64,000 nucleotides of DNA from Candidatus Eisenbacteria bacterium. Lineage in GTDB: Bacteria > Eisenbacteria > RBG-16-71-46 > CAIMUX01 > JAHJDP01. Below, one piece after another: positions 3,059-63,777 of the stretch. Both the position numbers and the translations under genes were made by a program. The stretch spans positions 1 through 64,000 of the forward strand of contig JAHJDP010000002.1 of assembly GCA_018831195.1 (NCBI GenBank), written 5' to 3'. The notes under the pieces were generated by a model. That model was given only the letters and a program-made list of their open reading frames with translations. It did no database searches and had not been told where the DNA came from. Within the stretch, counting starts at the first letter, position 1; the number at the start of each line of letters is the position of its first letter.

Positions 3059-5287
3059 TTATCTGATCACCAGGACCTTCTCTGATTGCGCCTGCTGGCC
3101 GACTTCAAGCCGGGCCAGATAGAGCCCCCCGGCGACAGGTCGATCATTGTCATCACGGCCATCCCAAATAATATTATGCGATCCCCGGTTCAGCTGTTGC
3201 TCTACCAAAGTTCGCACAATTCTCCCGTTGACATTATAAACTTTCAATGACACAACACTGCTATGCGGAAGAGCGAATGAATAGGCTGTTCCGGTGTGCA
3301 TTGGGTTGGGTCCCACATGCAACCCCAGAACCGGATCCACGGATACATTTCTTATATCGGATGTCGGACAATCAAAGGGGCCGAGAAAGTCACATACTTT
3401 CGGAGTCGTATTGTCGTAGGCAACCTGAAGCTCGTCCATCACCGTGGACATCGGTTTATCAGATTCACTGATGCTATACGCTTCAATTTGAATGGCCAGC
3501 TTTTTGGGGAGCCCACAGACTGATATGTCTTCTTCATTGTCCAAAAAGAGAAACTCATCCATTAGATCCGGATCACCATACATAGGCCTGCCGCTCACTA
3601 CTGTCAGCTTCACATCCGCAGCATCGATCTCGAGAAGGGCTTGATACGGATCCTCAGGATCACCGGGAATAACCATGAGATCGGCCTGATAACCCGTCGC
3701 CACTTGGCCTATTCGATCTTCAGCGCCCATGGCATAGGCGGCATTCCTTGTGGCAAAGAGGGCAAAATCCACGGGCTCAATCGTACTGCCCCAGAAAAGT
3801 GTGTTCAATTTGTTGCCATACTGGATTTCCTGCAGCATGTCCCGCGTGCCCGATTCGGTCCAATCCGGTGCAATTGCAACATTCACCCCGGCGAGCAGAG
3901 CGCCCGGAATGTCGGGCGATGCAGCATAAAGGAACATGTCGCTTTTGGGAGACCAGACCAGATTGGCCTCTGCTTCAGCCATGAGTTGCCATTCAGTTGG
4001 ACCGTACGGGATACCATGAAGGATGGTCGTCCGCCAATCCAACATGCCCCATTGCCGCCAGGTATAAAATTCCTGTAAAGCGGCCGCATTGATACCTTCA
4101 GACAAATGGATAACAAATCGATCCCAATACTCCTCTTTCATGTCCTGCCAGTAGTTCATGTCCTCGTCAAGTGGAAATGTCTTCGTATAAATACGACTTG
4201 GAAATCTTTCTGCATTATTTATAACCATTCCCTGCTGGCCGTAAAAATCATCGCTCTCGACGTTGCAGTTTCTTCCTTGCATCATCGTTGTACCGGCACA
4301 AAGCGCTCGCACTTCGGCGACTTTGAAGACATTGCCAATTTGAGCGTTGGTGCCGCCGTAATCTATAATGGCATCAAGCTGATCTCCAAAATCAGAGTAT
4401 ATTGGAGTGATCCGCCACTCATATCGATCCGCAAAGGTTTGCCCGAAAGGAATATGATCCAGAACATTATAAGCTGCGTGATTATGGCCATCGATTAAGC
4501 CGGGGAAAATCAAACCACCGGTCTCAACAAGCAGCAGCTCCCTCGGTGGAGATGATGTGATGCCGATAATTCTGTCGCCCTGGATCTCAATGTATGAATC
4601 CTCGAGAATCTCGAGGGCTGGATTCATCGTCACAATATCTCCCCCTATAACAAAATGCGGTATGATATCGCCCGTTAAGTCCATGGTGTTGCGCGGCTCG
4701 AGTTTATATTGACCGGCGCTATAGTACAAAAACCCGGTCACGGAGGCCAAAGAGTCACCGATTCTGGGAAAGTACATATAGTCGTTTAGGTCATCGCAGC
4801 GAATATCGCCGCTTCCATCGTTGGCTATCCACTCGCCGGCGCCCAAAAGAGATGTCACTGTGAGATCATTGATGCTGAGAAGCACAGATTCATACTGTTC
4901 TTGGGGTGCGTCTGCCGCCCAAACAACCAAGGATCCGATGGAATTGCCGGTCGAGAGAAGGGTATAGCTGGTAATCTCCCACAGTATTGTCATGCCGCTG
5001 ACCTCAATCACCGTACCGCTAATTTCCACCTCATCGCCAATCTGCGGGCCGTTGCTTTGGGAATAGACGTAGACCGCCTGCCAGGGACCGGTCCCTTCGG
5101 CGATCACATACCCGTAATAGGTAATGGCGGAGACGACACCTGAGGTTGTGATGAATTGCCCATTATAGGGGGATACCCCCGATGGATCAGTCGTGTATTG
5201 AATATCATAGACTGCAACCCCTGACACCGCTGTAACCGCAAACAAGATAAGAAGTAAGCTGATTACGGATGCTTGTGTAAATTTCAT
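3059..5287 (-). CDS. Secreted amidohydrolase with OB-like N-terminal and FlgD-like C-terminal domains
   Basis: The start at 5287 is chosen because GGAGG sits eight bases upstream. A signal peptide is followed by a DUF5689/OB-like domain (about residues 25-205), then an amidohydrolase barrel (about 210-600) with the metal motif DGHNH, the HLSEG segment, the ILHG segment and the AIAPDW aspartate motif, so all usual metal and catalytic positions appear present. The last 70 residues form an Ig-like FlgD/Por-type domain (VYNVNGRIVRTLV ... WDGRDDNDRPV) that usually serves in surface attachment or secretion sorting. The likely chemistry is hydrolytic deamination or dechlorination of a heterocycle as in the atrazine chlorohydrolase/cytosine deaminase group, but the substrate is unknown. 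Confidence 0.85.
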   Translation of the reverse strand: MKFTQASVISLLLILFAVTAVSGVAVYDIQYTTDPSGVSPYNGQFITTSGVVSAITYYGYVIAEGTGPWQAVYVYSQSNGPQIGDEVEISGTVIEVSGMTILWEITSYTLLSTGNSIGSLVVWAADAPQEQYESVLLSINDLTVTSLLGAGEWIANDGSGDIRCDDLNDYMYFPRIGDSLASVTGFLYYSAGQYKLEPRNTMDLTGDIIPHFVIGGDIVTMNPALEILEDSYIEIQGDRIIGITSSPPRELLLVETGGLIFPGLIDGHNHAAYNVLDHIPFGQTFADRYEWRITPIYSDFGDQLDAIIDYGGTNAQIGNVFKVAEVRALCAGTTMMQGRNCNVESDDFYGQQGMVINNAERFPSRIYTKTFPLDEDMNYWQDMKEEYWDRFVIHLSEGINAAALQEFYTWRQWGMLDWRTTILHGIPYGPTEWQLMAEAEANLVWSPKSDMFLYAASPDIPGALLAGVNVAIAPDWTESGTRDMLQEIQYGNKLNTLFWGSTIEPVDFALFATRNAAYAMGAEDRIGQVATGYQADLMVIPGDPEDPYQALLEIDAADVKLTVVSGRPMYGDPDLMDEFLFLDNEEDISVCGLPKKLAIQIEAYSISESDKPMSTVMDELQVAYDNTTPKVCDFLGPFDCPTSDIRNVSVDPVLGLHVGPNPMHTGTAYSFALPHSSVVSLKVYNVNGRIVRTLVEQQLNRGSHNIIWDGRDDNDRPVAGGLYLARLEVGQQAQSEKVLVIR

Positions 5288-60777: not shown

Positions 60778-61140
60778 TTAGGCCGCAATCCACTTCTCGG
60801 CTTCGGCTTGCTCGCTATTCGAGAAGACTTTGACTAAGCACGGCATCATAAATGCGAACATTCGTGTGGCATGAGCGACCCACTTAACATCCGTGACAAC
60901 TGTGATTCTTTCCCATGCCTTCCAGTGTGCAAGTCCAAGCTTGGCGTCATCCCACATGGCCCCGGAAGTGAATCCCGTGAATTCCGGCGTGAGCTGATAA
61001 AGCACTCTAATTCGCTTGTGCCTCAGAAGCGCGGATTCAATCGCTGGGATAAGAACCGTTTCATAGTCCTTCGCATCGATTTCACCTGAGGCGCTGATGC
61101 CAACCACGTCATCAGGAAGATTGGCAAGAAGCTTTATCAT
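60778..61140 (-). CDS. SpoIIAA-like (STAS-fold) protein
   Basis: The 120-residue protein has the SpoIIAA-like pattern of the DUF3478/STAS group: LANLPDDVVGISASGEI at the start and WDDAKLGLAHWKAWERITVVTDV in the middle. Relatives are cytoplasmic, may bind lipids or partners, and lack the phospho-serine of true anti-anti-sigma factors. No sigma system is adjacent. Confidence 0.85.
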   Translation of the reverse strand: MIKLLANLPDDVVGISASGEIDAKDYETVLIPAIESALLRHKRIRVLYQLTPEFTGFTSGAMWDDAKLGLAHWKAWERITVVTDVKWVAHATRMFAFMMPCLVKVFSNSEQAEAEKWIAA

Positions 61141-61705: not shown

Positions 61706-61836
61706 ACCTAGCGTTCTTCTAACCGGCGAGGTGCGCTTGGCGCGGCCCTCGCCCACTCCACTCGTCGCGCCTATATTATCTCTCACAGGGGGAGGCCGTG
61801 ACAAGGGCCCTCGACGGGTTAATGCGGTCGTTAAAC
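61706..61836 (-). repeat. attC-like recombination site A (integron cassette)
   Basis: The segment is imperfectly palindromic. On the minus strand it opens with GTTTAAC (a match to the RYYYAAC core), and 131 bases later it ends with GCTAGGT (GTTRRRY expected, one mismatch at the second base). Inner arms (TAACCCG at one end, CGGTTAG at the other) are also inverted repeats. It is about 75 percent identical to site B in the same orientation and follows the stop of the 62579 gene by 11 bases. This is the arrangement of an attC site after a cassette gene. Confidence 0.7.
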
Positions 61837-61847
61837 GTTGTGAACAA

Positions 61848-62579
61848 CTAATATAGACTTTTAATCTTACCCCATGATGTGGTTTTTGTTGGCCATGGAG
61901 AACAACGATCTCTAGCCATTTCTCTAATTCCCAAATTCTTACAATTCGGGAAAATTTCATTAATAGGAACCCAGCCTGAACCATAACCTAATCCTGGAAA
62001 GACCTTTGTTGCCGAGCGCGCGTTGGTCGTATCGCTGGCTTCGTCGGCCGCAACATACCAACCTTCTTGTTGATTAAATGGCCAGTTTCCCCAGTATCCC
62101 GCAAAGTGAGCGCCGTCAACGCAACAGTTCATTGAAAGTTGATGTACAGAGATCTCTGGCCATGTCGCAATTGGGCCTGGTTCGATCATTATTCTTGAAC
62201 AGATTATATTACCCGGAATCGGGTTGGGACCGTCCTCCAAAACCGATTGCCAGAGATATAGATCAAGGGTCTGGTTGTCAAATTGACTCCCATCGCTTGT
62301 AAGATACAACTGGATTCCGCAAACGTACGTCGCATCATACCGCTCAGCAAAACAACTATAATCTGGTGGGACGACGCCCTCAAGTCTCCACATATACGCA
62401 TTTTCAAATTGCCCGTCATCATTTTGGAGCAATGTATCTCTTGGGCAAAATTCATCGTTTGGAGGCGGCAAAATCTGAGTATTTTCATGAAAGCCTATAC
62501 TAATGATTGGCTCATCGTCGGCCGCCAAAGGCAAAGCAGAGAAGACTAAAGGCATTAGGAACGCTGCAAATATGTACAT
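61848..62579 (-). CDS. Secreted cysteine-rich protein, unknown function
   Basis: I start at ATG 62579, followed by a signal peptide (YIFAAFLMPLVFSALPLAA). The frame extends to TTG 62621. The protein has paired cysteines (NCCVDG, CFAERYDATYVCG) and the segment FAGYWGNWPFNQQEGWYVAADE, which suggests a beta-sandwich. It ends in TTSWGKIKSLY, matching the tail of the cassette gene at the right edge (TWGRLKSLYDH). It follows the TIR-ATPase gene in one cassette, with the stop 11 bases ahead of attC-A. Confidence 0.65.
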   Translation of the reverse strand: MYIFAAFLMPLVFSALPLAADDEPIISIGFHENTQILPPPNDEFCPRDTLLQNDDGQFENAYMWRLEGVVPPDYSCFAERYDATYVCGIQLYLTSDGSQFDNQTLDLYLWQSVLEDGPNPIPGNIICSRIMIEPGPIATWPEISVHQLSMNCCVDGAHFAGYWGNWPFNQQEGWYVAADEASDTTNARSATKVFPGLGYGSGWVPINEIFPNCKNLGIREMARDRCSPWPTKTTSWGKIKSLY

Positions 62580-62613
62580 AATTCGTTTATCGCCATGATG
62601 GCTCCGCGGGATC

Positions 62614-63630
62614 TCATTCAATTTTCTCGGCCGGATATATCAACCTAACCGTCGTGACATAGGGAGGCCTGGGATCTCCTTCGCCAATCATCCATCTAAC
62701 AGGTTTGCTCTCAACAACAATATCGCCTTTGTATTTCCTACTGATTTCTCTTGCCAACCATAAACCCATTCCCATCCCGCCTGCTGTGTGCTCTTTGGCG
62801 TCTGGCGTTCTAAAGCCCCGCTCGAATATCACTCCACTCTCAATATCTTGCTTTGGGATCCCAACGCCCCAATTCTCGATCTGAATTATGGCTTTGGATC
62901 TTGCCTGCGATGTCGATAACATGACTTTTGATTCCAAATTGCGTCCAGAATAACTGTATTTTATGGCATTATTCAAAACGTTGGCTATGGCCGTAATAAT
63001 TTCTGGCCGCGAGGCTATAACGTGAGCGTTGGGGGCAGTATCCGTAAAGTCTATTATAACATTTCGACGCCGCGCATACTTCCCAAATATCTCAATGGTT
63101 TCACGCACCATCTCCGAGAGATGAACCAGGGTTTTGAGGCGTTTAGGTTTCGCGTTTTCATCTCTTTCTATGACGATATCATCAAGCGGTGTTGGGGTTT
63201 TACTCAGGTCGGCGTGGCCCTGTTCGCCGTCTATAGATCGTATAATTTGATTAACACCGTCTTCCCACCTTGGGAACAGGTCGATCCAATGTAACTCATT
63301 GAGTTTTCGGTACTTTGGTTTGCATTCCATTAGCCTGACCGGAATAAGATAAATTTCGTCGCCTGGAGTTTCCTCCAATACCTCAATCGCCTTTTTAATC
63401 TCTGCTTGCACAACTCCGCGCTTACCAACAGAGGATTTTGATAACAATGCAATAAAATAGTCGGCCCTGCTTATTTCTCTATGAATAACCTCTCGCCAAT
63501 TCTCTCCGCCCCGGAGGTCTTTCTTGTCAAACCAAACACTTATCCCATGCACCCGTAAATCTTTTCGCAAACGATCGGCAGCGGAAGAATCTTCTCGTGC
63601 GTAGCTCAAAAATACTTTCTTTTTTGGCAT
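62614..63630 (-). CDS. TIR domain fused to a histidine-kinase-type ATPase domain
   Basis: Residues 1-135 form a TIR domain (VFLSYAREDSSAADRLRKDL, SVWFDKKDL, WREVIHREISRADYFIALLS) with the predicted catalytic Glu77 in VVQAE. Residues 155-335 form a GHKL/HATPase domain: N box NVLNNAIKYS (217-226), G1-like IENWGVGIP (251-259, N in place of the usual D) and G2 GGMGMGLW (284-291). A histidine near 170 sits where a HisKA phospho-acceptor would be but the surrounding sequence is weak. There is no membrane segment. The gene starts 18 bases after attC-B. A role in NAD-consuming defence or signalling is inferred, not shown. Confidence 0.85.
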   Translation of the reverse strand: MPKKKVFLSYAREDSSAADRLRKDLRVHGISVWFDKKDLRGGENWREVIHREISRADYFIALLSKSSVGKRGVVQAEIKKAIEVLEETPGDEIYLIPVRLMECKPKYRKLNELHWIDLFPRWEDGVNQIIRSIDGEQGHADLSKTPTPLDDIVIERDENAKPKRLKTLVHLSEMVRETIEIFGKYARRRNVIIDFTDTAPNAHVIASRPEIITAIANVLNNAIKYSYSGRNLESKVMLSTSQARSKAIIQIENWGVGIPKQDIESGVIFERGFRTPDAKEHTAGGMGMGLWLAREISRKYKGDIVVESKPVRWMIGEGDPRPPYVTTVRLIYPAEKIE

Positions 63631-63647: not shown

Positions 63648-63777
63648 GTCTAACGTTCTGCTAACCTGCTAGGTGCGCTGGGCGCGGACCTCGCCATCTC
63701 AACTCGTCACGCCAATATAATAGCATTTTGCGGGAGGCGTGACAAGGGCCCTCGTCGGGTTACTGTGGTCGTTAGGT
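63648..63777 (-). repeat. attC-like recombination site B (integron cassette)
   Basis: On the minus strand the site opens ACCTAAC (fits RYYYAAC) and ends GTTAGAC (fits GTTRRRY), 130 bases apart. The inner arms GTAACCCG and AGGTTAGC are also complementary, giving the two-box stem expected for attC. The central segment differs from site A, but the ends and many inner bases agree. The neighbouring gene to the right ends 20 bases before the site and the TIR-ATPase gene starts 18 bases after it, as in a cassette array. Confidence 0.75.

Follow-up and report, generated by a model that had tools for sequence, protein, structure and literature searches.

A TIR domain joined to a histidine-kinase-type ATP-binding domain in a predicted integron cassette of Candidatus Eisenbacteria, a candidate single-gene defence effector

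Results

Gene, protein and domain layout

The stretch of DNA analysed here (the window, 64,000 nucleotides from Candidatus Eisenbacteria) carries on its minus strand, at 62614-63630, an open reading frame with an ATG start that encodes a protein of 338 amino acids, exactly where the initial annotation had placed it. That annotation had described the product as a TIR domain and a GHKL-type domain in one protein, lacking membrane segments and a convincing HisKA domain, and the profile searches agree on each point. Pfam finds TIR_2 at residues 6-130 (E 7.8e-29) and HATPase_c at residues 210-316 (E 4e-16), both far above chance, and detects no HisKA; the NCBIfam histidine-kinase models cover the protein only from about residue 150 on, that is, over the post-HisKA, catalytic part. 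No membrane segment is seen in the sequence or in the structural model. We refer to the protein as TIR-GHKL.

An AlphaFold2 model built on an alignment of 21 sequences (mean pLDDT 82.5, pTM 0.57) shows two separate confident domains, residues 1-134 and approximately 165-335. The first, encoded at 63229-63630 (minus strand, as for all parts of the gene), has the alternating strand/helix arrangement of a TIR-like fold, with pLDDT mostly 80-96. It is followed by a flexible linker (residues 135-164; 63139-63228), of which the stretch 137-158 is disordered, with pLDDT below 50, so that, together with the pTM value, the placement of the domains relative to each other is not fixed by the model. Alignment with relatives of the ATPase half puts this linker at the site of a histidine-bearing helical region in those proteins. 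The remainder of the protein (residues 165-338; 62614-63138) is the HATPase_c domain.

Integron cassette and its surroundings

An attC site is found on either side of the gene, each on the minus strand. Immediately upstream, at 63648-63777, is the attC that belongs to the preceding cassette; read on the strand of the gene, its ends are ACCTAAC and GTTAGAC, which conform to RYYYAAC/GTTRRRY and are intact, and it shows strong self-complementarity and strong predicted folding. The site closing the cassette (61706-61836) is 81% identical to it, and its R' box reads GCTAGGT, not GTTRRRY, so that this site has possibly decayed. Similar attC repeats are present on eight or more of the genome's contigs, including C2, C21, C37, C65, C80, C87 and C106, and a full-length, intact integron integrase is encoded on contig C69 (TIGR02249, 441 bits against a curated cut-off of 265). 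The assembled contig that carries the TIR-GHKL array stops at 67142 and does not link the array to the integrase. The flanking attC sites, the full-length integrase and the many similar repeats elsewhere in the genome lead us to assign the gene to an integron cassette, which the initial annotation had considered probable. The gene is AT-rich (GC 0.453, compared with 0.545 for positions 1-56000 of the window).

The same cassette contains a second gene on the minus strand (61848-62579, within an open reading frame at 61848-62621, with its ATG at 62579), which begins 34 bp past the TIR-GHKL stop with no attC in between. Its small product has a signal-peptide-like N-terminus and the C-terminal tail TSWGKIKSLY, and gave no Pfam family above cut-off; it is a secreted cassette partner with no evident defence role. 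Among the neighbouring cassette genes are one for a DUF2293 protein and a pair encoding Phd/ParE, and the open reading frames around the gene include secreted-type proteins, toxin-antitoxin genes, PEMT and a SpoIIAA-like protein. Toxin-antitoxin and other likely conflict genes in the cassette regions of this genome comprise Phd/ParE on C2, a Zeta toxin and PIN/MazE. Integron cassettes have been reported as reservoirs of defence systems and phage-defence genes (PMC12409362; Kieffer et al. and Darracq et al., as cited in PMC13092281). These reports raise the prior for a defence role, though they are not a test of it.

Several other features of this genome's cassette regions were observed. Eleven small proteins, mostly bearing signal peptides and many adjoining attC sites, have a common C-terminal tail, [TS]WG.[ILV][KR]...[YF] (for example TWGSIKSLY). 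They are encoded at 61848-62579 of the window, L045 7798-8373, L047 2377-3069, L048 4945-5478, 5707-6813 and 7523-8299, L049 7050-8219, 9003-9662 and 9777-10865, L050 376-969 and L051 5654-6490, all loci of this genome (G000), and the tail resembles a signal for secretion or sorting, as yet undescribed, that the integron cassettes of this genome carry. On contig C65 (L047), a second integron integrase gene (3310-4367) is broken by a stop or frame break and has an attC-like repeat nearby (2232-2354); this is a decayed integron platform. A second TIR_2 gene, also matching ThsB_TIR, is found on contig C37 (L050 4922-6010, 362 amino acids). It closely follows a short attC-like site (4794-4855) and possibly encodes another cassette-borne TIR protein. 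The SpoIIAA-like (STAS) gene is located two genes downstream of the cassette, at 60778-61140 of the window. SpoIIAA-like proteins are acted on by GHKL kinases of a different type, and the proximity may be a coincidence.

The TIR domain

The initial annotation had predicted Glu77 (codon at 63400-63402) as the catalytic residue, and had named the lack of an NADase glutamate as an outcome that would speak against its reading. The alignment gives the opposite outcome: Glu77 is invariant in 38/38 aligned TIR sequences, as are D14, W33, D35, G42, W45 and P97, and in phmmer alignments it pairs with the glutamates of 8qlo (a SPARTA TIR-APAZ protein) and 7uxr (a TIR protein). Glu77 is thus, as judged from these alignments, the putative NADase-type glutamate, and the protein has one of the marks of a TIR NADase effector, a TIR fold with this residue in place. 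TIR enzyme domains are typical of antiviral systems by which bacteria commit suicide upon infection. Residue 73 is a valine where 35 of the 38 relatives have Phe or Tyr, so that the activity of the domain may be altered.

The closest TIR relatives found come from searches whose central loci are assigned to Bacteroidota (L179, 50% identity), Chloroflexota (L146, 45%; L147, 47%) and KSB1 (L184, 40%), the phylum names being those of the central loci. These N-terminal TIR_2 proteins share with TIR-GHKL the type of TIR domain, its position in the protein and the invariant glutamate at the start of the '[FY]VQ.E' helix, but they have other partner domains or none recognised, and among those fetched no GHKL domain is present. 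The partners of the nearest relatives are Lcl_C, FGE-sulfatase, LRR, CarboxypepD_reg, DUF4062 and a Cytochrom_C_asm membrane domain. This variety indicates that the TIR is a mobile module whose partners can be exchanged, the pattern that an effector with swappable sensors would show.

The ATP-binding domain

The label 'GHKL ATPase' in the initial annotation needs correction in one detail: the domain is, by Pfam, Foldseek and alignment, more exactly a predicted catalytic (CA) domain of the histidine-kinase type, belonging to an atypical 'ENWGV' subfamily. Foldseek matches it to histidine-kinase CA domains, with MprB (6blk_D) at a TM-score of 0.90 by target length. A clamp of the gyrase, Hsp90 or MORC type was considered and ruled out by the N-box and by this structural match. 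All four boxes are present in the alignment: the N-box NVLNNAIKYS (residues 217-226; 62953-62982), the G1 box ENWGVGIP (252-259; 62854-62877), the F-box FERGFR (269-274; 62809-62826) and the G2 box GGMGMGL (284-290; 62761-62781). The subfamily is marked by an Asn in place of the Asp of canonical kinases in the G1 box, by an F-box of the form IF..G[YF]R and by an extended C-terminal segment, PF[IV]T.V.L.LP, in contrast to the short G.GSTF..LP form of canonical kinases; in TIR-GHKL this segment ends in PYVTTVRLIYP (residues 311-335; 62626-62700). Across eight members, 23 columns are invariant, among them the E, N, G and V of the G1 box (8/8). Hydrolysing GHKL ATPases have a Glu at the N-box position that is Asn217 here, the residue of the kinase type, so that a strong ATPase cycle is unlikely, and fast ATP hydrolysis is a less likely role for this CA domain than that of an ATP-binding sensor or of a kinase.

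The other members of the subfamily (L022, L166, L169, L190, L191, L193, L194 and, on a viral contig, L195) are PAS proteins or fragments. Those seen at full length show a conserved histidine in a helical region, in most of them within '[IV]LHAN[TS][TS]TL'. Where the flanking sequence is long enough, a receiver protein that keeps D10, D55 and K133 comes next, in most cases with a membrane protein after it. TIR-GHKL shares with this set the CA subfamily, including the ENWGV-type G1 box, the IF..GYR F-box and the PF[IV]T.V.L.LP tail, but it has a TIR in place of the PAS domain, and the helical histidine region is gone, the alignment with the relatives beginning in the stretch that immediately precedes the CA domain. 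The receivers are likewise missing here, since no open reading frame of the cassette encodes one, and a profile of the receiver family gave no match at E <= 1e-4 in this genome (G000, 99.3% complete), whereas the same profile does detect the family in another genome of the phylum (G014). Of the components of a histidine kinase, then, the HATPase_c domain is found, and the phosphoacceptor DHp/HisKA region with its histidine and a cognate receiver, nearby or in the genome, are not.

With these parts not found, the CA domain is not equipped for phosphorelay, which argues against ordinary two-component signalling; the protein has kept the ATP-binding CA domain and lost the parts that phosphorelay needs. 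The initial annotation had named a consistent occurrence of homologues in chromosomal two-component pathways as a point against its reading. This came true in part: relatives of the GHKL half do adjoin receivers, but those relatives have the PAS domain and histidine-bearing helical region that are absent here.

The three-gene arrangement of the relatives is itself kept across several phyla and one viral contig (L166, L169, L190, L191, L193, L194, L195 and L022). It consists of a PAS protein with an ENWGV-type kinase, a receiver-like protein of about 165 amino acids with a divergent C-terminal part and, mostly, a membrane protein whose cytosolic part is helical. The set gave no match to any PADLOC system beyond HATPase.

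Search for other copies of the fusion

No second example of a TIR paired with a CA domain was found in the plasmids, phages, viral contigs and genomes searched, within the limited reach described here. A single-protein search of genome contigs and viral contigs returned no full-length homologue; plasmids and phages gave half-matches only; about 1,770 sampled whole genomes contained no such fusion; and the sampled genomes of the same phylum and of six further groups, reached through other loci and labelled Magnetococcales, cyanobacteria, Anaerolineae, Pyrinomonadaceae, Sphingobacterium and KSB1, gave only TIR-only or kinase-only matches, as checked by script. In 84,980 species genomes, neither exact peptide patterns nor a gapped DNA pattern, in which the TIR WxD..G motif is joined to the N-box at the spacing of this protein, revealed a fusion. 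The gapped pattern produced 24 viral hits in a looser version and 58 genomic hits, none of them a TIR-GHKL; those in frame are kinases with no TIR match and the others are out of frame. With a sensitivity on real relatives of about 18% (9/37 x 12/16), a narrow linker range and a sample that is a small share of existing genomes, this is a weak negative, and at that sensitivity we do not claim that the fusion is unique in nature. With a single copy at hand, conservation of the fusion as a unit cannot be shown.

Comparison with known defence systems

As the initial annotation had stated, no named system fits: PADLOC models match either the TIR or the ATPase part and none spans the entire protein, and our literature searches found no TIR-HATPase system. 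The match to the PADLOC candidate PDC-M43B is confined to the HATPase part (residues 211-309, E 1.2e-7). In SPARTA (TIR-APAZ), TIR-SAVED and TIR-STING the TIR is gated by a fused sensor domain, as proposed here for TIR-GHKL, and has its catalytic Glu at the equivalent place, but the sensors are APAZ, SAVED and STING, where TIR-GHKL has an ATP-binding kinase domain and no Argonaute or cyclase gene in its cassette. Neither an APAZ domain nor a short Argonaute partner was found in the protein or in neighbouring genes; no SAVED or STING domain of Pfam and no CD-NTase gene, as in CBASS TIR effectors, was found, and the PADLOC SAVED matches span the TIR only. A ThsA effector, as in Thoeris, was not found beside the gene, and the ThsB models of PADLOC give weak, partial matches to short stretches, far worse than TIR_2. 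Detocs is a phosphorelay-based phage defence. Compared by description only, it resembles TIR-GHKL in using kinase-family domains in defence, and differs in that it needs a kinase with a phosphoacceptor and receiver-bearing partners, none of which is present at this locus.

Discussion

We have described a cassette-borne protein in which a TIR of a known effector type is paired with a putative regulatory partner, the CA domain, that is new for such effectors. Our preferred reading, to which we give a probability of roughly 45%, is that TIR-GHKL is a one-gene TIR NADase effector controlled by its ATP-binding module, and probably serves in phage defence. What points to an effector, at the level of the sequence, is the combination of two domains, the invariant Glu77, intact ATP-pocket motifs, the missing DHp region, the lack of a detected cognate receiver and the cassette setting; from these we infer NADase activity, ATP gating, oligomerisation and phage defence. 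The TIR would be an enzyme consuming NAD+ or making an NAD+-derived signal, held off in healthy cells, and the CA domain would act as its nucleotide-sensing regulator. The Bergerat pocket would bind ATP; upon infection or stress, the ATP would be lost or the partner would change, which would alter self-association and thereby switch the TIR on. The resulting loss of NAD+ would stop growth, as in phage defence of the abortive-infection type.

Other explanations have to be weighed against this model. The protein might be part of a split two-component system, in which the CA domain phosphorylates a separate DHp or HPt protein and the TIR is merely a recruiting interaction module. The N-box is of the kinase type, the CA relatives sit in the conserved gene set with its receiver and membrane protein, and this genome has many histidine kinases. 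We nevertheless consider a split kinase unlikely: the receiver of that family was not found in the genome, the protein has no DHp, the cassette encodes no kinase partner, and a pure adaptor would not need the Glu77 that is fully conserved in the TIR family. It is about as improbable that a TIR gene and a kinase fragment were joined once by chance in a cassette, with no selected function and with decay yet to come. Such an accident would account for the failure to find another copy in plasmids, phages, about 1,770 genomes and the scan of 84,980 species genomes, and the two halves differ somewhat in composition (GC 0.43 and 0.46, GC3 0.42 and 0.48). However, each domain is whole and has clear boundaries, the reading frame is unbroken and neither half has lost any of its motifs, and the absence elsewhere is weak evidence given the low sensitivity and narrow linker range of the scan.

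A third reading keeps ATP as the gate and has the TIR make a nucleotide signal, in the manner of Thoeris ThsB, for an effector encoded elsewhere. The conserved TIR glutamate, the partial matches to ThsB models and the ThsB_TIR match of the other TIR gene, on C37, are in line with it, but a ThsA-type effector is neither in the cassette nor adjoining, and the ThsB models fit short stretches only, far worse than TIR_2; this reading seems to us quite unlikely.

The preferred reading of an ATP-controlled TIR effector can be taken one step further, to a new class of TIR immune effectors in which a CA domain devoid of its DHp, drawn from a receiver-partnered family, serves as a direct ATP or nucleotide switch for NAD+ destruction and has spread as a single integron cassette. 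In this extended form we regard the proposal as rather doubtful. TIR-GHKL is easy to test, being a soluble protein of 338 amino acids that probably needs no partner. The known gates of TIR effectors are cyclic-nucleotide, nucleic-acid, STAND NTPase and protein-ligand sensors. If our model holds, a CA domain that lacks a phosphoacceptor would be a new kind of switch for TIR effectors, NAD+ destruction would be coupled directly to the ATP state of the cell, and the loss of a domain together with a fusion would be a way to turn a phosphorelay kinase into an immune sensor.
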